From the NCBI GenBank assembly GCA_009377815.1, contig WHTI01000007.1, positions 1 to 53,570 on the forward strand: 53,570 nucleotides of DNA, in the 5' to 3' direction. The position numbers and the translations under genes are program-made. The DNA is from Actinomycetota bacterium. GTDB taxonomy: Bacteria > Actinomycetota > CADDZG01 > WHSQ01. The notes beneath the pieces were generated by a model. The model was given only the letters and a program-made list of their open reading frames with translations. It did no database searches and had not been told where the DNA came from. Shown here piece after piece: positions 37,851 to 53,570 of this stretch. Positions within the stretch are counted from its first letter, which is position 1; each line of letters opens with the position of its first letter.

Positions 37851-39059
37851 TTAGAACTCTCGCACTGCGTGCCAGCGTCGCTCCCACTCGGCTACGCGAT
37901 CTAAGTCACGTTGATACGGCTTGCCTGTCTGGATCGCATAGTCGACGCGATTGCAGATTCGGTGAGCCAGCCGGACGTTGTCGACGGTTAGTTTGCCGTC
38001 GTCCTTCTTGAGGACCGGGTAGTGATCTGGGGTCGGCATCCAGTCAATCGGAGGGTGCACCTTCCGCTCGAAGTAATGTCGACCACCAGCTCCCTCGGGG
38101 CAAAGGCACGTTGGCATGCTGCATGCGACTTCTTTGATCCGTCCCTGTTCGGCGGCTTTGAGTAGCACACCTTTGACGCCGACATATCGGAGGGCATCCA
38201 CAATGGCAGCGCGACGGGCGACAGTCGCATCCCAGAACCGTCGCTGTTTGGGCCATTCCTCAGCTTCCAGGATACGCGCGTTTGTGGCCTCGTCGTTGAA
38301 CAGGACTTTGTAAACATGTCCGGCCTTCAAGACGAGTCCGGTGTACCCATAATCGACGAGCTGGTGGTCAGGACTGGCCTCGTTCACTACCTCGTAGATG
38401 TGCTTGGAGACGCGGTTGCGACCCACCTGTTTGTCGGTCACGATCCGGATGAACTCGGTTTGGCCGCGCGGTCTGATGCAGCCTTCTGTGACTTCGAGCG
38501 GACTCCACTTCCGTCGGACCTGTTGGTGGTCAATCTTGGTCTTGAGAATGCTCTTTGCCGCTCTCTTTGCTGCCTTGTCAACGCTCTTCGCGTATTCGCC
38601 CTTCTTTCCGGGAATCCACGTCGGCACTACGCGGAGTCGGTGCCGCTGGTTTGCACGGTTACATAACCTGCGGAGCTCCATCCACTGCCGGACGTTGTCT
38701 ACAGGGGCACCGCCACTTCTGTGCCATTTCGTGTTCGGCCAAACTTTCCGGGCGTTGTATAGGTTGTCGACGAAGTAGCGCGAGTCGCTGTAGATGATGA
38801 TCTTGGTGACGTCGGCTAGATCAATGGGGGGATGCCGCCCAAGCGCCGTCTTCAGCGCTTGGATGGGAGCCTCCAGCTCCATCTGGTTGTTGGAGGCACC
38901 CTCGTGCGAGTAAGGGAACGGCTCGGTCTCGGACTGCTCATGACCGTGGGCGTCGACCCAGACGTGGCGGATGCCAAGCCCTCCACGGCGCGGGCCAGGG
39001 AGCGAGGAACCGTCGACGAAGATATTCAAGGCTGTCTCATCGATGAAATCAGGAATCAC
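37851..39059 (-). CDS. RNase H-like domain fused to an HNH-type C-terminus
   Basis: A 402-residue protein. Residues 8 to about 145 form an RNase HI-like domain: D16 in IFVDGSS, E61 in NNQMELEAPIQAL, D92 in IIYSDSRYFVDN and a fourth acid in KSVDKAAKRA. All four carboxylates of the two-metal site seem present. A central 150-residue part is unrecognised (HIYEVVNEASPDHQLVDYGY). The last 90 residues have a CSMPTCLC cysteine pair, PDHYPVLKKDDGKLTVDNV and RLAHRICNRVDY, an HNH-like pattern with D-H, N and H residues. It could cut RNA in hybrids and DNA, and lies in a group of nuclease-like genes. A defence role is inferred. Confidence 0.7.
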   Translation of the reverse strand: MIPDFIDETALNIFVDGSSLPGPRRGGLGIRHVWVDAHGHEQSETEPFPYSHEGASNNQMELEAPIQALKTALGRHPPIDLADVTKIIIYSDSRYFVDNLYNARKVWPNTKWHRSGGAPVDNVRQWMELRRLCNRANQRHRLRVVPTWIPGKKGEYAKSVDKAAKRAAKSILKTKIDHQQVRRKWSPLEVTEGCIRPRGQTEFIRIVTDKQVGRNRVSKHIYEVVNEASPDHQLVDYGYTGLVLKAGHVYKVLFNDEATNARILEAEEWPKQRRFWDATVARRAAIVDALRYVGVKGVLLKAAEQGRIKEVACSMPTCLCPEGAGGRHYFERKVHPPIDWMPTPDHYPVLKKDDGKLTVDNVRLAHRICNRVDYAIQTGKPYQRDLDRVAEWERRWHAVREF

Positions 39060-39194
39060 AGTTGGCCCCTGGACGTGGGAGTCGCCGTTACCTACGATCG
39101 TAGACCCGAGGAATGAAGCGTCCCAGTGAACATGCTTCGCCTAGAGTCAGCTTGCATCTAAGGATATGTTCAACAGTGTAGGGAAGGTCGAACA

Positions 39195-40133
39195 TTGCCG
39201 AGCAGAGCTCGCCGCTCATTCGATGAACTCAGTCACGACGTTGAGAAACTCATGTCATATGACCCCGTCGGTCCCGGCGGCGGTAAACGTATCGAGAAGA
39301 CGGAGGTGCTCAACAAGTCTGCAATCGTTCTGCTTACGGCCTTCTGGGAGGCTTACTGCGAAGATCTGGCGGTCGAAGCAGTCAGCCATCTGGTCGAGTT
39401 TGCCGAGAGCGCTGAAGAGCTCCCACAAAGGCTAAGAGAGCGCGTGGCTCGCGAACTCCGAAAGGAACGCGACGAACTCAGCGTCTGGCGGCTTGCGGAT
39501 GACGGGTGGAGGCGCATGCTCCGAGTCCGCCTCAGAGAGCTCCAGAAGAAACGCAACTTGCTCATGAATACACCGAAATCATCGAATGTCGATTACATCT
39601 TCGACAACTACCTTGGGGTCCCTCATGTCTCAGAGGCGTGGCACTGGCAGGGCATGACGCAAGAAAGTGCGTGCAAGAAGCTGGATCGAATGGTGACGCT
39701 ACGAGGAGACATAGCGCATAGGGGGTCAGCCGCCAAACCCGTATCGCGAGCGGTTGCAAGGGGTCACCTCAAGCATGTACGGCGCATAGTAGGCAAGACC
39801 GGCGGGGCAGTTAACTCAGTCCTAAGAGATTCAACCGGAGTGGGCTTGTGGGAGCCAATGCTTGTCCGCGTTATGGAGCGTGTTACGGGCGACATCTTTA
39901 CTGCCGCGGAGGTGAACCGGGCCCTAGACACCCTGACGACTAGTCAAAGGGAAGTCATATCGCTGAGATTTGGGCTGCATACCCGGAGCTCCATCACCCA
40001 TCCTTCCGACAAGCCGGAGCAACTCATGAAGCTTGACGAAATCGCCTCCATGCTGGGAGTAACGTCCAAGCGAATCCGGCAGATTGAGTCTGCGGCGTTG
40101 CGCAAACTCCGTGCCTTCCAAACGGACCAGTAG
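39195..40133 (+). CDS. RiboL-PSP-HEPN-like domain fused to sigma-70 region 4
   Basis: From TTG 39195 (GGGAAGG upstream) it has 312 residues. The first 190 are helical with LNKSAIVLLTAFWEAYCEDL and the HEPN-type R-x4-H motif R170/H175 (LRGDIAHRG), as in RNases and in abortive-infection proteins. The C-terminal 70 residues are a clear sigma-70 region 4: ALDTLTTSQREVISLRFGL, then LDEIASMLGVTSKRIRQIES and AALRKLRAF. There is no region 2, so it is not a working sigma factor alone. It may bind -35 elements or RNA polymerase and bring a HEPN RNase to them. I know of no standard family with this order. Confidence 0.72.
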   Translation: MPSRARRSFDELSHDVEKLMSYDPVGPGGGKRIEKTEVLNKSAIVLLTAFWEAYCEDLAVEAVSHLVEFAESAEELPQRLRERVARELRKERDELSVWRLADDGWRRMLRVRLRELQKKRNLLMNTPKSSNVDYIFDNYLGVPHVSEAWHWQGMTQESACKKLDRMVTLRGDIAHRGSAAKPVSRAVARGHLKHVRRIVGKTGGAVNSVLRDSTGVGLWEPMLVRVMERVTGDIFTAAEVNRALDTLTTSQREVISLRFGLHTRSSITHPSDKPEQLMKLDEIASMLGVTSKRIRQIESAALRKLRAFQTDQ

Positions 40134-40600: not shown

Positions 40601-41614
40601 ATGCTGGCTTACCAGGTACGCGATCGGGTGCTTCGCACAGAACCAGAGGGCACCAAGCTCAGGTTTCCCAACGATGTAGAGGTAGCACTACATTTCACCC
40701 CTGCCTCCGCCTTCGGAGGTGTAGCAAAGAAAGGACGAACGGTTGGGCGGCAATCTGAAGCAACTCTTCGGTGGGACGCGAACACGGGGCGGCAATACGT
40801 CTTTAGCGCCACTCCTTTGGATCCTGCAGATGTCGCTGCTCAATCGGGCCGCTACAAGGTGCGGTTCAGAGCGAATGTATTCACCTGTCAAACTCGAGTC
40901 GACGATAGAAACGGGTTGCAGCACCTTATAGAGACGCTGGCCTACGTGCTGCCTCCTCTCTTGAACGTCGACATGTTGGACTCCGTGACCTTGGATCGCG
41001 TCGGTGGCTCCGTGGGCGGAACTTCGTTCCCATGGGAGTTGTCGCGCAGCCTGCCAGGCAATTTCGAAGTCACGACAACCGATGAGCAAGAGCAACGACT
41101 AATGGGCGCGTGGGAACGATTGACCAGTATCGAGGATGAAGATCGCAGGATCGTCGCGGCACTTCAATACTTTTACGTCGCCTGCCGTCTTGAGAGAGTC
41201 GGGTCCTCCCCTTGGGAGTTCCTTCCCGAAATCGTGTTGAATCTCGCTAAGGTCCTCGAGGCGTTGTTCCCACCATCATCCGAGCAGGGAACGATCGACG
41301 CGGCGAGACAGGGCTTGCAGCAGTTGGGATATCCGGCGGATGAGGTCGACCGAGACTTCATCCCTGCCATCGCCTTGCGAAACAGCCTGGACGCGGGTCA
41401 CGCAAGCCTCGCGATCTTCGATGCTGCCGACTTAGCCGAAGTCCATACGGACTGCGAACGCGCGGAACCGACATTCAGGGAAATGCTGCGGCGTCTCTTG
41501 GCGGCAGCCGAAAGCGGAACCGTGTCGTTGGAACCATTTGGGAACACGGAACCTTCAAAGGATGTACTCAAAGTTCTCGAGCGCATCAGAACAGCGAACG
41601 AGCGAAACCCATGA
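40601..41614 (+). CDS. Hypothetical protein with C-terminal HEPN-like motif
   Basis: A 337-residue protein with a strong GGAGGAAAG ribosome-binding site. The first 170 residues are beta-rich (LRFPNDVEVALHFTPASAF, YKVRFRANVFTCQTRV) and the last 150 helical. In the helical part ALRNSLDAGHASLAIF contains R260 and H267 (R-x6-H), like ApeA-type HEPN ribonuclease domains. The next gene, a nuclease-like protein, follows on the same strand. The pattern suggests a two-gene defence module, but homology to ApeA is only by motif. Confidence 0.6.
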   Translation: MLAYQVRDRVLRTEPEGTKLRFPNDVEVALHFTPASAFGGVAKKGRTVGRQSEATLRWDANTGRQYVFSATPLDPADVAAQSGRYKVRFRANVFTCQTRVDDRNGLQHLIETLAYVLPPLLNVDMLDSVTLDRVGGSVGGTSFPWELSRSLPGNFEVTTTDEQEQRLMGAWERLTSIEDEDRRIVAALQYFYVACRLERVGSSPWEFLPEIVLNLAKVLEALFPPSSEQGTIDAARQGLQQLGYPADEVDRDFIPAIALRNSLDAGHASLAIFDAADLAEVHTDCERAEPTFREMLRRLLAAAESGTVSLEPFGNTEPSKDVLKVLERIRTANERNP

Positions 41615-41777
41615 GGCCTGGTTTGCCCCATTCACGCGCCAGAGAACCACGGCTGAAGGCGGGGCCATGTGGTCCCCCCTGCCCTACGCAGCTTACGACC
41701 AAGACTTGCGCTACGGACAGCGCCTATGGCAAGGACGAGTGGCCGGACGCGGCAACAGACGCGGCAACATAGGGAGC

Positions 41778-42977
41778 ATGGCGACGATTCCGGACTACGG
41801 AAGGCTGGGAGAGCAACGGGTCGGCAAGGCGGCCGGCGCGTGGGGCTTGCCAGACTTCGTCTATCAGCCGATCGAGGTCGACAAGGGTGGCGCGCGCCGC
41901 GAGGTCGGAGATCGGCTCATCTGGGTGGGAAACCAGATCGCAATCGTGCAAGTCAAGACTCGCTCATCGCCTGGCGACTCCGAGGATCGTGGGCGCGCCT
42001 GGCTCAACAGGCACCTCGCCAGAGCGAACCGACAGATCAACGGGACCTATAGGACTCTCTCCTCACCACCGAGCGACCTCGTCCTACGATCGGATCGTGG
42101 GGTCGAGGTTCCCTGGGACGCCAGCGTGGTGACTTCGTACTGCGGGGTGGTGGTAGTCGATTACGACCGCCCAATCAGATACGAGCCTCACCTCGATCAG
42201 TTGAAGGTGGCGACCATCGCGATGGTCGCTGACGACTGGGAGCTCATCACGTCGACACTGATCAGCACCGCGTCACTGCTGAATTACATCATGTGGCGAG
42301 CAACGGTTGGCGTGACGATCTCGCTGGGTCATGAGGACTACCTCTTGAAGCAGGTGCTGACCGCTGAGACGCGCGGTGAAAGGGCGAAGATCGATGCCGA
42401 CGGCCTGATCGCGGGACGTTGGGTAACAACCACCGATGAACCTTCCGACGCCGTCTTCGGATCAATGTCGGATCATCAATATGCCTTTGTCGTGAACGAG
42501 ATGATTGCCGGGGCGGCTGAGCAAGAACGCGAGTTCTCAACCTTCCGGGAAGCTCACGAATACCTTCACATCATCGAGTTCCTCGACCGGATCCCACCAA
42601 TGCACCGTGTGGAGTTCGGCAAGCGCGTAATCGCCAAATGCCAGGAAGCAGGCCGGACCAACAAGGCCCAGTCGAGCCTGCTGAGGACGGTTTCGGGACC
42701 TCTCGTCTTCGTTGCCCACCCCGGTCCAAGGGAGAAACGCGTCCATTGGCTGCGGAACCTCGTTCTTGCTCGTCATACCCAACTACAAGACGCGTTGAGC
42801 GGGCAGCAGGTAACCACACTGGGGGTGGCGACAGACCCCGTGCCAACAGCTGGGCGCTCGCATGACTACGTCTTGTTACGCGGACAGCTGCAACTTGAGC
42901 CCAATGAAAGGACACGACGCGACAAGATGTTCGGTGAGTTCCCAGGCGAGATTGAGATGTTCAGAGCAACCGATTGA
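41778..42977 (+). CDS. PD-(D/E)XK-like nuclease domain protein
   Basis: I prefer ATG 41778 (GGGAG just upstream) over longer starts, giving 399 residues. Residues 5 to 75 look like a restriction-endonuclease fold: LGEQRVGKAAGAWGLPDF, then D45 in REVGDRLIWVGN and IAIVQVKTR with Q58-V-K60, as in Mrr-type enzymes where Q replaces the E of ExK. The remaining 300 residues are unrecognised and helical. It lies 163 bases after the HEPN-motif gene. DNA cleavage is inferred. Confidence 0.62.
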   Translation: MATIPDYGRLGEQRVGKAAGAWGLPDFVYQPIEVDKGGARREVGDRLIWVGNQIAIVQVKTRSSPGDSEDRGRAWLNRHLARANRQINGTYRTLSSPPSDLVLRSDRGVEVPWDASVVTSYCGVVVVDYDRPIRYEPHLDQLKVATIAMVADDWELITSTLISTASLLNYIMWRATVGVTISLGHEDYLLKQVLTAETRGERAKIDADGLIAGRWVTTTDEPSDAVFGSMSDHQYAFVVNEMIAGAAEQEREFSTFREAHEYLHIIEFLDRIPPMHRVEFGKRVIAKCQEAGRTNKAQSSLLRTVSGPLVFVAHPGPREKRVHWLRNLVLARHTQLQDALSGQQVTTLGVATDPVPTAGRSHDYVLLRGQLQLEPNERTRRDKMFGEFPGEIEMFRATD

Positions 42978-46477: not shown

Positions 46478-47437
46478 GTGGCTCGCTCAGATCTCCTGAT
46501 CGATCTTGTCGAGGCCGAACGTCGCGGCGACAAAGCGAAGTTCCGCGCTCTCGTCGAAGCAATAATTGCCGAGGAGCGCTCCAATCAGCATCACCTGGTA
46601 GCGGACCGCTTGTCCGAGCTCATCACTACGATGGGTTCCTCAGAGCTGCTTCGTGACGAAGCTTCTTCCCGCATCAACGATCTGCTTCTGGATCTCGTAC
46701 CTCAACGCAGACTTGGCTCTCTGCAACTGTCGCCACCGGTCTTGGCTTCGGTCGAAGAGCTTATCGAGGAACACCAACGGACTGACTTGTTGCGAAGTTA
46801 TGGGCTGGAACCCCGGAATCGCGTGCTCCTTGATGGGCCTCCAGGTAACGGGAAGACGAGCCTGGCAGAGGCGATTGCTGCTGAGACCATGGTGCCTTTC
46901 TACGTTGTTCGTTACGAAGGCGTCGTTTCTAGCTTTCTCGGGGAGACCGCGGGCCGACTGGATCACGCGTTCGAATTCGCGAGGACTCGTAGATGCGTCC
47001 TGTTCTTTGACGAGTTCGACACGATTGCGAAGGAACGTGCAGATATCCATGAAACCGGTGAGATCAAGCGGGTGGTTTCGACGCTCCTCCTACAAATCGA
47101 CCGACTCCCGGCCCACGTAATCGTCGTGTGTTCCACGAATCACTCTGAGCTTCTGGACAGGGCGGCGTGGCGGCGCTTCCAACTTCGTCTCGAACTCGCA
47201 GCTCCGTCGCGCGCGGATGCAACTGAGTTCCTGGAGACATTGAAGACCCGCCTCGGAGGTGATCTCGGCCTGGCTCCGAGGACATTGGCAGACAAGCTCG
47301 CGGGTGCCAGCTACGCGGAGCTGGAGCAGGTTGCGATCGATATCCGACGTCGTCTTGTTCTCGCACCGCCGGATGGAAACCTGGGTGAGATCGCGAGGAC
47401 AAGGATCGAGCAGTGGCGGACCCAAGCTCATCCGTGA
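46478..47437 (+). CDS. AAA+ ATPase of an ATPase/subtilase defence pair (IteA-like)
   Basis: A 319-residue protein from a GTG. The N-terminal 95 residues are helical. The AAA+ core shows Walker A GPPGNGKTS (K126), Walker B CVLFFDEFDTI (D178, E179), sensor 1 in VVCSTNHSELLD and an arginine finger region in AAWRRFQLRL. It is like the proteasomal/FtsH-type classic AAA proteins. It overlaps the subtilase gene by 25 bases, so the proteins should act together, for example with the ATPase gating the protease. Such pairs are reported as anti-phage systems; I recall the name IteA/IteS but could not check it. Confidence 0.82.
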   Translation: MARSDLLIDLVEAERRGDKAKFRALVEAIIAEERSNQHHLVADRLSELITTMGSSELLRDEASSRINDLLLDLVPQRRLGSLQLSPPVLASVEELIEEHQRTDLLRSYGLEPRNRVLLDGPPGNGKTSLAEAIAAETMVPFYVVRYEGVVSSFLGETAGRLDHAFEFARTRRCVLFFDEFDTIAKERADIHETGEIKRVVSTLLLQIDRLPAHVIVVCSTNHSELLDRAAWRRFQLRLELAAPSRADATEFLETLKTRLGGDLGLAPRTLADKLAGASYAELEQVAIDIRRRLVLAPPDGNLGEIARTRIEQWRTQAHP

Positions 47438-50016
47438 CGGACCCACGACCCCTACTGGCATTTCCGCCACCGCAGACAGGGCCTATTCCTGCTGCAACGA
47501 GTCCGACTCCGTATAGACCGGTCCAGGGTCCGAGCGCGGGCCGTCAAGGGACAAGACTGACTCCTCAGTTTCAAACTCTTCGGGTGGCGCTTGAGGCTGA
47601 GCGCGCGCAACTTACGGAACAGACGGGATCTCCGGAACCGGAGTTGGTTGCCGTCTTTGACCTGGCAGGGACCGTGGAGGCTTTCATGCGGGCGGCCGCG
47701 CTGGTAGATGGGCTCGAGTTCTTGTCTGAGTTGCAGGAGGACAAGGTTGACGCTGACGACGATTTTTTCTACGAGGCTGATGGCGAGACACAAGATGACA
47801 AAGTTCCTCAGTCGCTCTACATGGTGATGACGAATGCCCAAGCGGTGACGGAACTAGTTCGATTGTTCGAGCTCTGGCAAGAGGACCAGTCCATCACTTT
47901 CGAGCGGGGTCTAAATCCTTTGAAAGGGGTTTTCGGTCTGCTGCGGGCGATCCGTCGATGGGGTCCAGAGGATCGGGTTCGCGAGACGGGATTGCTGGAA
48001 CAGTGGCGTGAAGACGTTGCCGTTGGGCAGTCGATAGCCCGAGTCGAGATTGAGCTGTGGTACCGCGACGACCCAACATCGCGAACCGCTGCTCAAGAGC
48101 ACGTGGCAGACATCGTTCATTCGTCTGGTGGGACGGTGCTAAAGAGTTCCGACCAGGAGGCTATTGCCTATCACGCCGTGCTTGCAGACATCCCGATGTC
48201 GCAAGTGGAACAGGTCCTAGCGCGCGGTCCAGAGGCGATTGAGCTCCTGACAACGGAGACTGTGATGATCGTCAGCCCAAGTCGCCCCATGACTTTTCCG
48301 GCCACAGAACCGACGGTGGCAGATCAACTTCGCTTCGATACGACGCTTCCAGAGGGCCGACCCCAAGTTGGATTGCTTGATGGGGTCCCTCTTGCCAATC
48401 ACGTCTGTCTACAGGGCCGACTCATCGTCGACGACCCGGACGATCGAGGTGAAAAGTACGCCGTCGGGCAGCTTAATCATGGAACGTCAATGGCGTCTCT
48501 GATCGCTCACGGCGATCTGCTCGACCCAGGACCCTCATTACGGCAACCGATCTACGTTCGCCCCATCCTTGAACCGCATGAACATTTCCGAGAAGAACGG
48601 GTGCCTCCAGATGATCTGCTTGTGGACCTGGTGCATCGAGCGTTCCATCGCATGTTCGAAGGCGACGGCGCCAACGATCCCGCGGCATCGAGCGTTCGGG
48701 TCGTGAATCTATCTGTGGGCGACCCGACCCGAGTTTTCATTCGGCGACTTAGCCCCCTCGCTCGGTTACTGGATTGGCTTGCCCACGTGTACAACCTCGT
48801 CATTGTCGTGAGCGCCGGTAACCATATGTTGGTAACGCCGACCCTCGTGACTGAAGACCTTTCGGATGTACCGTCGCTCCAATCGACGGCGGCAAGATCG
48901 CTCTACGAGCGAGCCCGGCACCGACGGCTGCTGTCTCCGGCAGAAGCCATAAACGCGTTGACTATCGGCGCGCTCCATGAAGATGCGGCAGTTCAGGAGC
49001 TTCCTGCCACTGTGGTTGACGTCATAAAGGCGGGGACTCCAGCGAGCTATTCCCCCGTGGGATACGGGTTTCGCCGGTCGGTTAAGCCAGATGTCCTTCT
49101 GCCGGGGGGCCGGGTGATCTACCAGGCCCCTGTTGCGGAGGCCGGTAAGCCCGTGGAGTTGGACGCTGTTCTCACTCCAGCGACCGGTCCCGGCCTGCGA
49201 GTTGCGGCGCCTGGACGAGGTGGGGAGCTAACAGGAACCAGCTTCACGAGTGGAACGAGCAACGCAGCTGCACTGGCTACGCGAGCTGTCTCGAACATCC
49301 TGGACATGCTCGCAGGTCTGACGCAGGAGGACGGAGACTTTCCGTTCCCAGATGCGCAATACCATCCCGCCCTCGCCAAAACGCTGCTCGTGCACGCGAG
49401 TGGATGGCACGATCTCCTAGGCACGATGCGCGATGACCTGGGCCTTTCCGGTCAATCGATTCGGAGGGAACTGACACGCCTACTTGGTTATGGACCAGTT
49501 CATCCCGAGCGGATAGCAACAGCTGATCGGGTCCGGGCCGTGTTGCTTGGAGCGGGTTCCATCAACAAAGATCAACGGCACTCATTTCGGTTTCCCTTGC
49601 CGTCTGACTTGTCGGCCTCGACCGAGTGGCGCCGGTTGACCATTACTTTGGGTTGGCTCTCGCCCGTAAGCGTACGCACACAGAAATACCGCATGGCGCG
49701 CCTGAAGTTCACCGCGCCAAGGGATGATCTTGCTATCGCTCCGACCGAGGCGGACGCCAATGCAGTTACGAAGGGGACTATTCAGCATCAGGTGTTGGAA
49801 GGGAGTTCGGTGGCGGCATTTGCAAGCGGCACTAGCCTGTCAATCGACGTCGACTGTCGAGGCGAACTCGAGCGCTTCCCCAGTCCCGTGCGCTACGCCC
49901 TCGCCGCCTCGCTGGAAGTCTCGCCAGAGGTTCAGATTGATGTCCAGGCCCAGGTTCGAACATTGCTTCGAGCGGAAGTACGCGAACGGGCACGGGCACA
50001 GGTTCCGGCCCGATGA
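47413..50016 (+). CDS. Large S8 subtilisin-like protease (IteS-like)
   Basis: An 867-residue protein with no signal peptide, so probably cytosolic. An N-terminal 310-residue regulatory region precedes the S8 domain. The triad is D323 (QVGLLDGVPL), H356 (LNHGTSMASLIAHGD) and S616 (GTSNAAALATR), with the oxyanion-side region near VVSAGNHM. A C-terminal 200-residue beta-rich domain follows. Being intracellular and coupled to an AAA ATPase, it is likely a regulated protease released on infection. The start is a GTG inside the ATPase gene. Target proteins are unknown. Confidence 0.85.
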   Translation: MADPSSSVTDPRPLLAFPPPQTGPIPAATSPTPYRPVQGPSAGRQGTRLTPQFQTLRVALEAERAQLTEQTGSPEPELVAVFDLAGTVEAFMRAAALVDGLEFLSELQEDKVDADDDFFYEADGETQDDKVPQSLYMVMTNAQAVTELVRLFELWQEDQSITFERGLNPLKGVFGLLRAIRRWGPEDRVRETGLLEQWREDVAVGQSIARVEIELWYRDDPTSRTAAQEHVADIVHSSGGTVLKSSDQEAIAYHAVLADIPMSQVEQVLARGPEAIELLTTETVMIVSPSRPMTFPATEPTVADQLRFDTTLPEGRPQVGLLDGVPLANHVCLQGRLIVDDPDDRGEKYAVGQLNHGTSMASLIAHGDLLDPGPSLRQPIYVRPILEPHEHFREERVPPDDLLVDLVHRAFHRMFEGDGANDPAASSVRVVNLSVGDPTRVFIRRLSPLARLLDWLAHVYNLVIVVSAGNHMLVTPTLVTEDLSDVPSLQSTAARSLYERARHRRLLSPAEAINALTIGALHEDAAVQELPATVVDVIKAGTPASYSPVGYGFRRSVKPDVLLPGGRVIYQAPVAEAGKPVELDAVLTPATGPGLRVAAPGRGGELTGTSFTSGTSNAAALATRAVSNILDMLAGLTQEDGDFPFPDAQYHPALAKTLLVHASGWHDLLGTMRDDLGLSGQSIRRELTRLLGYGPVHPERIATADRVRAVLLGAGSINKDQRHSFRFPLPSDLSASTEWRRLTITLGWLSPVSVRTQKYRMARLKFTAPRDDLAIAPTEADANAVTKGTIQHQVLEGSSVAAFASGTSLSIDVDCRGELERFPSPVRYALAASLEVSPEVQIDVQAQVRTLLRAEVRERARAQVPAR

Positions 50017-52765: not shown

Positions 52766-53200
52766 TCTGGTTTCCCCTCGCGGAGCTCATTCTGTCGGGA
52801 ACAAAGACGGTGGAGGTCCGTAGGGTCGTCCCGCGCGGCGCTAGACCTGGAAGTCTGGTCCTTATTTACGCGTCATCACCGGAGAAGGCTCTGTGGGGTA
52901 TCTGTTTCATCGAGCATGTTTCGACGGGCCGTCCTGAGACGGTCTGGCGCAAACTCGGGAAGAAGACCGGACTGAAAAAAAGGGACTTCCTTGCCTATCT
53001 GATGGGCGCGGACAAGGCGGTGGCTTCATGTGACCAAACCAATCGAGTTCGCTCGCCCAATTCCGCTATCCGACATCAGAAGGACATGGAACGAATTCCA
53101 GCCCCCACAGAGCTTCTCCTATGTGGCTCTATCCAAAGTAGAGGAACTGGCGAGTGGCGCAACGCTGACACAAGCGGCATTCCCTGGCGCTGCTGGCTAA
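52766..53200 (+). pseudogene. ASCH/PUA-like domain protein, frameshifted
   Basis: One frame reads LAELILSGTKTVEVRRVVPR, then PGSLVLIYASSPEKALWG and GKKTGLKKRDFLAYLMGADK, as in ASCH-fold predicted RNA-binding regulators. Near 53025 the continuation moves to another frame: HVTKPIEFARPIPLSDIRRT, then PPQSFSYVALSKVEELASG and a stop at 53200. The N-terminal methionine is missing and the first residues look decayed. A single indel could also be an assembly error. Confidence 0.7.
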
Positions 53201-53307
53201 CGAATCTAGACACAACAAGATCGAGTGGGAAATCGGAGGCTCGGGCGCGTTCCCACGAGGGCCAGCGTGAGAAGTCTACCGACGACACCCTGGAAGCAGG
53301 AGAAGCA

Positions 53308-53337
53308 CGGCGTGAGGCGAATGCTCCCCTCACGCCG
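53308..53337. terminator. 10-bp stem hairpin upstream of the last gene
   Basis: CGGCGTGAGG (53308-53317) pairs perfectly with CCTCACGCCG (53328-53337) across a 10-base loop and is followed by AAGCTCTTTCTCC. It may terminate transcription from the left or shape the leader of the following gene. Confidence 0.5.
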
Positions 53338-53363
53338 AAGCTCTTTCTCCAGGAGGTTGCAGG

Positions 53364-53570
53364 ATGATCAGGCTCAGGAACACACTTGCCATCGCGGTCG
53401 TCGCGATGATGGCTCTGGCCGGGACCGCTCTGGCGGACTTCAGCCCACAGTTCAGCCTCGATGTCTCGAACAAGAAGGTGAAGGGGCATCCCGCGTTCGA
53501 TATCCACCTCGAGTTCGATGCCGAGGATGAGGAGATCGGCAACTTCATCATGCTGCTACCGAAGGGCTAC
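53364..53570 (+). CDS. Secreted protein, N-terminal part only
   Basis: ATG 53364 has CCAGGAGG nine bases upstream. The first 69 residues include a Sec signal peptide (RLRNTLAIAVVAMMALAGTA, then LA before DFSPQ) and a beta-strand-rich start (FSPQFSLDVSNKKVKGHPAF). The pattern fits a secreted protein with immunoglobulin-like domains, but the gene runs off the right edge. No function assigned. Confidence 0.75.
   Translation, partial: MIRLRNTLAIAVVAMMALAGTALADFSPQFSLDVSNKKVKGHPAFDIHLEFDAEDEEIGNFIMLLPKGY

Follow-up and report, generated by a model that had tools for sequence, protein, structure and literature searches.

The question raised by this locus is what a protein that joins a helical, HEPN-like ribonuclease domain to a lone sigma-70 region 4 could be, and what the second domain could do for the first. 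The gene lies on contig WHTI01000007.1 of an Actinomycetota bacterium; the whole stretch of DNA analysed, 53,570 nucleotides in length, is referred to below as the window. The coding frame runs on the forward strand from a TTG to a TAG codon and encodes 312 residues with zero internal stops, and each of the other five frames contains 7–17 stops across the same interval. The TTG start is considered sound because the Shine-Dalgarno-like element AGGGAAGG lies 7 nt before it and because homologues, whose N-termini read MPS or MAS, begin at the same alignment column. GC content by codon position is even through the joint between the two domains. The match of the gene to two domain families is far beyond chance, and the joining of HEPN and region 4 is real, in a single uninterrupted frame.

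The N-terminal half matches the Pfam family PF18735 (HEPN_RiboL-PSP) over residues 32–186 with a score of 50.7 bits (E=2.6e-13), well above the curated cut-off of 28.4 bits, and the same family is matched by 31 of the 31 aligned members. The R-x4-H motif reported in the initial annotation is present as stated and conforms to the R-x4-6-H pattern of RiboL-PSP-HEPN proteins. Its two defining residues, R170 and H175, are invariant in the 31 aligned sequences, as are W51, E52, E56, D57, W105, P127, W149, L163, G171 and I173. In the AlphaFold2 (AF2) model, residues 1–220 are nearly all helical, with pLDDT mostly >90, and as predicted adopt the all-helical HEPN fold. A Foldseek search of a viral library with this half returned a MAE_28990-like HEPN protein as the top match (probability 1.00, TM 0.56), and the matches among solved structures included the HEPN toxins 7bxo_F and 7ae6_B (TM 0.54–0.55); none of the Foldseek E-values was below 0.001.

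The C-terminal tail matches PF04545 (Sigma70_r4) over residues 243–307 with 50.8 bits (E=1.1e-13; curated cut-off 24.1 bits) and is closest to region 4 of primary (RpoD/SigA-type) sigma factors, with about 40–55% identity. No Pfam model of sigma region 2 or 3 matches the fusion protein, residues 1–220 of which are HEPN; as judged from its sequence the protein is not a sigma factor, region 2 being absent as the initial annotation had it. The same annotation was correct in naming HEPN and region 4 as the two domains. Alignment with primary sigma factors places about 11 additional residues between regions 4.1 and 4.2, and the segment VTRERIRQIE of primary sigmas reads VTSKRIRQIE in the tail. Residues S291 and K292 are taken here to be the equivalents of R584 and E585 of sigma70, the numbering having been obtained by a count along sigma70 itself. 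The bases touched by R584 and E585 are those at -31 and -33 (PMC2613000). The equivalents of R588 and Q589 are retained, and very little has changed in region 4.1 or in the LRFGL segment. Because of the replacement of R584/E585, normal recognition of the -35 box (TTGACA) is unlikely; the proposal that the domain binds -35 DNA is weakened by this replacement and by the insert, and the tail probably does not read a -35 box. The AF2 confidence for the tail is low (block means 42–72), as expected because the alignment has no depth there. The features of the locus are collected in Table 1.

Table 1. Features of the HEPN–region 4 fusion gene and its upstream flank (window coordinates).
Feature	Position	Strand	Basis or remark
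Divergent gene, 402 aa: RNase H, C-terminus weakly HNH-like	37851..39059	-	PF00075 E=2.6e-19; HNH E=0.04
Perfect palindrome CTACGATCGTAG	39092..39103		Between the divergent genes; only copy in window; candidate operator
Shine-Dalgarno-like AGGGAAGG	39180..39187	+	7 nt 5' of TTG start; sequence
HEPN–sigma region 4 fusion gene, 312 aa, TTG start	39195..40133	+	Open frame; Pfam; start aligned with homologues
HEPN part, residues 1–220, RiboL-PSP-HEPN family	39195..39854	+	PF18735 match; homologues; AF2
HEPN motif R170-G-D-I-A-H175	39702..39719	+	R170, G171, I173 and H175 invariant in 31 sequences
Linker, residues 221–242	39855..39920	+	Starts after W219, where homologues end
Sigma-70 region 4, residues 243–307, primary-sigma type	39921..40115	+	PF04545; ~11-aa insert between 4.1 and 4.2 by alignment
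S291-K292, replacing the -35-reading R-E (sigma70 R584, E585)	40065..40070	+	Alignment; PMC2613000

Residues 1–220 are the full-length counterpart of a widespread stand-alone family. With one genome taken per species, an alignment-based scan located 29 loci, with three more on viral contigs, at about 28–51% identity to the HEPN half; further matches are four plasmid records from Pseudomonas and Streptomyces. Single-protein scans of the genome contigs and viral contigs returned no relative where the alignment scan gave 29 and three, wider viral scans added none beyond the three, and a search of phages gave no HEPN relative. In the tree, the HEPN of the window groups weakly (91/87) with members from Mycobacterium, Mycolicibacter and Streptomyces. 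Where the 3' end of a homologue is intact, its product ends close to residue 220 of the fusion protein, typically at TGxxLW or after a short extension beyond it, and such C-terminal extensions are short and varied within the family. One locus (L039) is cut by a contig end, and the plasmid copies H3 and H4 and locus L053 look broken. A homologue from genome G020, a member of the window's class (L003 1274–1962, reverse strand), is split over two frames and adjoins an apparent transposase gene. What seems to be this very gene and genome also came up when the phylum of the Mycobacterium locus was searched, which places the window most likely in Actinomycetota.

No conserved partner gene was found around the HEPN homologues. 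Their surroundings are mobile or defence-related: integrases account for 8 of 145 neighbours, and restriction methylases, SNF2-type helicases and conjugation genes are also present. In Mycolicibacter kumamotonensis (L033 2932–15107), pglW, the HEPN homologue, pglX and brxC follow one another on one strand in a Pgl/BREX operon. Stand-alone HEPN proteins have been described, in a survey from 2026, as effectors that back up BREX (PMC12839542), and the Mycolicibacter arrangement fits that description. Both the family assignment and the defence setting of the HEPN half are well supported.

Within the window itself, the initial annotation's placement of the gene among nuclease-like genes is fair. 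An RNase H–HNH gene (37851–39059, reverse strand) diverges from the fusion gene across 135 bp; the C-terminal part of its product also matches PDC-S70 weakly and has a counterpart of 50% identity in a single genome (G008) from the same family. An IetAS defence pair (46478–50016, forward strand) is encoded about 6 kb downstream of the fusion gene, with an integrase gene in between; it consists of the AAA ATPase IetA (E=9.7e-143) and the subtilase IetS (E=9.4e-290). Three further forward-strand genes of the window were noted. The first (40601–41614) encodes 337 residues that match no known family and, across 246 genomes, no relative; its product contains RNSLDAGH, a candidate second HEPN motif of the form R-x6-H, and gives a poor AF2 model. 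The product of the second (41703–42977), also of no known family, contains GDRLIWVGNQIAIVQVKTR, which resembles a restriction-nuclease-type motif, and has weak relatives on Streptomyces plasmids. The third (52810–53367) matches the phage-defence candidate PDC-M11B (E=1.4e-10).

The same fusion was sought in other genomes, and no second example was found either in a peptide-pattern scan of about 85,000 species or in profile searches of about 1,060 genomes. The profile searches covered 20 homologue genomes, about 1,040 genomes of three phyla and 24 genomes of the window's class, and detected more HEPN relatives, all without region 4. These searches are samples or are based on peptide patterns, so that rare relatives may be missed. 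The long frames at two loci (L067 and L071) reflect upstream read-through. The combination of RiboL-PSP-HEPN with region 4 is a singleton in the data searched; it seems to be an uncommon variant within a known kind of enzyme rather than a new system.

The reading that we favour, with about as much doubt as confidence, is that the gene encodes a single-gene HEPN endoribonuclease effector, toxin-like or of the abortive-infection type, with a gained C-terminal region 4 that places or regulates the enzyme. The RiboL-PSP-HEPN RNase would act alone as the effector; a stand-alone HEPN gene would have gained the sigma-70 region 4 domain at its 3' end; the tail would bind nucleic acid or RNA polymerase, and in doing so would position the RNase or couple its expression or activity to DNA or transcription. 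HEPN domains usually act as dimers that cut RNA with the R-x4-H pair, which lies in the cleft between the subunits, and a dimer of the fusion protein would thus carry two region 4 tails. That the fusion is known from one example counts against this interpretation, as do the low AF2 confidence for the tail, the Foldseek E-values above 0.001 and the lack of any consensus match to a sigma-70 promoter in the region. As a natural fusion of a toxin-like RNase to a sigma-factor domain, the protein could reveal whether RNases of defence systems can be directed to transcription. It also draws attention to the stand-alone HEPN family, which is widespread, has received little study and has one member inside a BREX/Pgl operon.

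The singleton status of the fusion, together with the end of intact homologues near residue 220, also suits a different account, in which the tail is an accidental product of read-through or gene fusion with little or no function and the protein acts as a stand-alone HEPN; the varied short extensions in the family indicate that additions at that end are tolerated. We regard this as unlikely. The region 4 is intact, scoring 50.8 bits, and the coding composition is uniform. Moreover, the tail has clearly diverged from every sigma factor found, unlike a fresh, unused copy, the closest having about 55% identity, and its core sequence is still kept despite that divergence, which argues that the tail is not decayed. 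Recent copying of the tail from a sigma factor of the host itself was rejected, the best other match in that genome being 46%.

A similarly low likelihood is assigned to autoregulation, in which the tail would bind the divergent promoter region of 135 bp and repress or tune its own gene in place of an antitoxin or repressor. The gene stands solo without a partner, the intergenic palindrome CTACGATCGTAG is the sole copy in the window, and a 9-nt inverted repeat overlaps the start region of the fusion gene; both are possible operator sites. Small palindromes arise by chance, however, and the homologues that stand alone need no DNA-binding domain.

Docking of the tail on the RNA polymerase beta-flap, which would bring the RNase near nascent RNA, appears quite unlikely. 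Such docking is possible because region 4 contacts the beta-flap in the holoenzyme (PMC2613000) and region 4.1 is well conserved here; region 4.1 and LRFGL have stayed nearly unchanged while the -35-reading residues were lost. The insert could nevertheless block the fit. An isolated region 4 would also have to compete with sigma for the beta-flap, which counts against docking. A more specific version, which we hold to be a long shot, would have the RNase docked at the beta-flap, next to the channel through which RNA leaves, cutting nascent transcripts, for example those of phages, or sensing a take-over of the host sigma site. A chimaeric contig joining two genes is hardly credible: the genome is a draft of 485 contigs and the joint is confirmed by no second genome, but it is in frame exactly past the usual end of the family, with uniform GC by codon position and no stop.

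The favoured interpretation, a stand-alone HEPN effector that gained region 4, can be set against several known systems. The stand-alone PF18735 members correspond to residues 1–220, with full-length homology and the R-x4-H motif, and those found differ from the fusion protein by lacking sigma region 4. A 2013 survey by Anantharaman et al. recorded RiboL-PSP-HEPN only in fusion with endoRNase L-PSP and in an operon with ParB, and its Table 1 lists a HEPN-SIGMA-HTH fusion in the DUF4145 HEPN family (PMC3710099). That fusion likewise combines HEPN and a sigma-type HTH in one protein, in a different HEPN family, and is known here from the table entry rather than from sequence comparison. No paper joining RiboL-PSP-HEPN with sigma region 4 was found in the literature searched by the terms tried. 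The initial annotation's view that no named family has this order of domains stands for RiboL-PSP-HEPN in these sources, but a HEPN of another family had already been listed with SIGMA-HTH; what is new is RiboL-PSP-HEPN with region 4, and what was already known is the RiboL-PSP-HEPN family itself and the pairing of HEPN with a sigma-type HTH elsewhere.

MzaA of the MZA system also has a C-terminal sigma region 4. Its similarity to the fusion protein (NCBIfam, 44.7 bits) is confined to that region and falls short of full-length MzaA, for which the cut-off is 800 bits over 726 aa. The HEPN half resembles HepT, the toxin of the HEPN-MNT toxin-antitoxin pair, in predicted fold and in its R-x4-H RNase motif; the genes flanking the fusion gene give no match to a nucleotidyltransferase (MNT), unlike those of a HEPN-MNT pair. 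Tha, from a Staphylococcus aureus prophage, is a single-protein HEPN RNase defence activated by phage tail proteins (PMC11087260). Like the fusion protein, it is about 300 aa long and carries a HEPN RNase domain with the R-x4-H motif. Its N-terminal part has no recognised domain and its HEPN is C-terminal, with no sigma region 4 described, whereas in the fusion protein HEPN precedes region 4. Tha is a working precedent for RNase defence by one HEPN protein.
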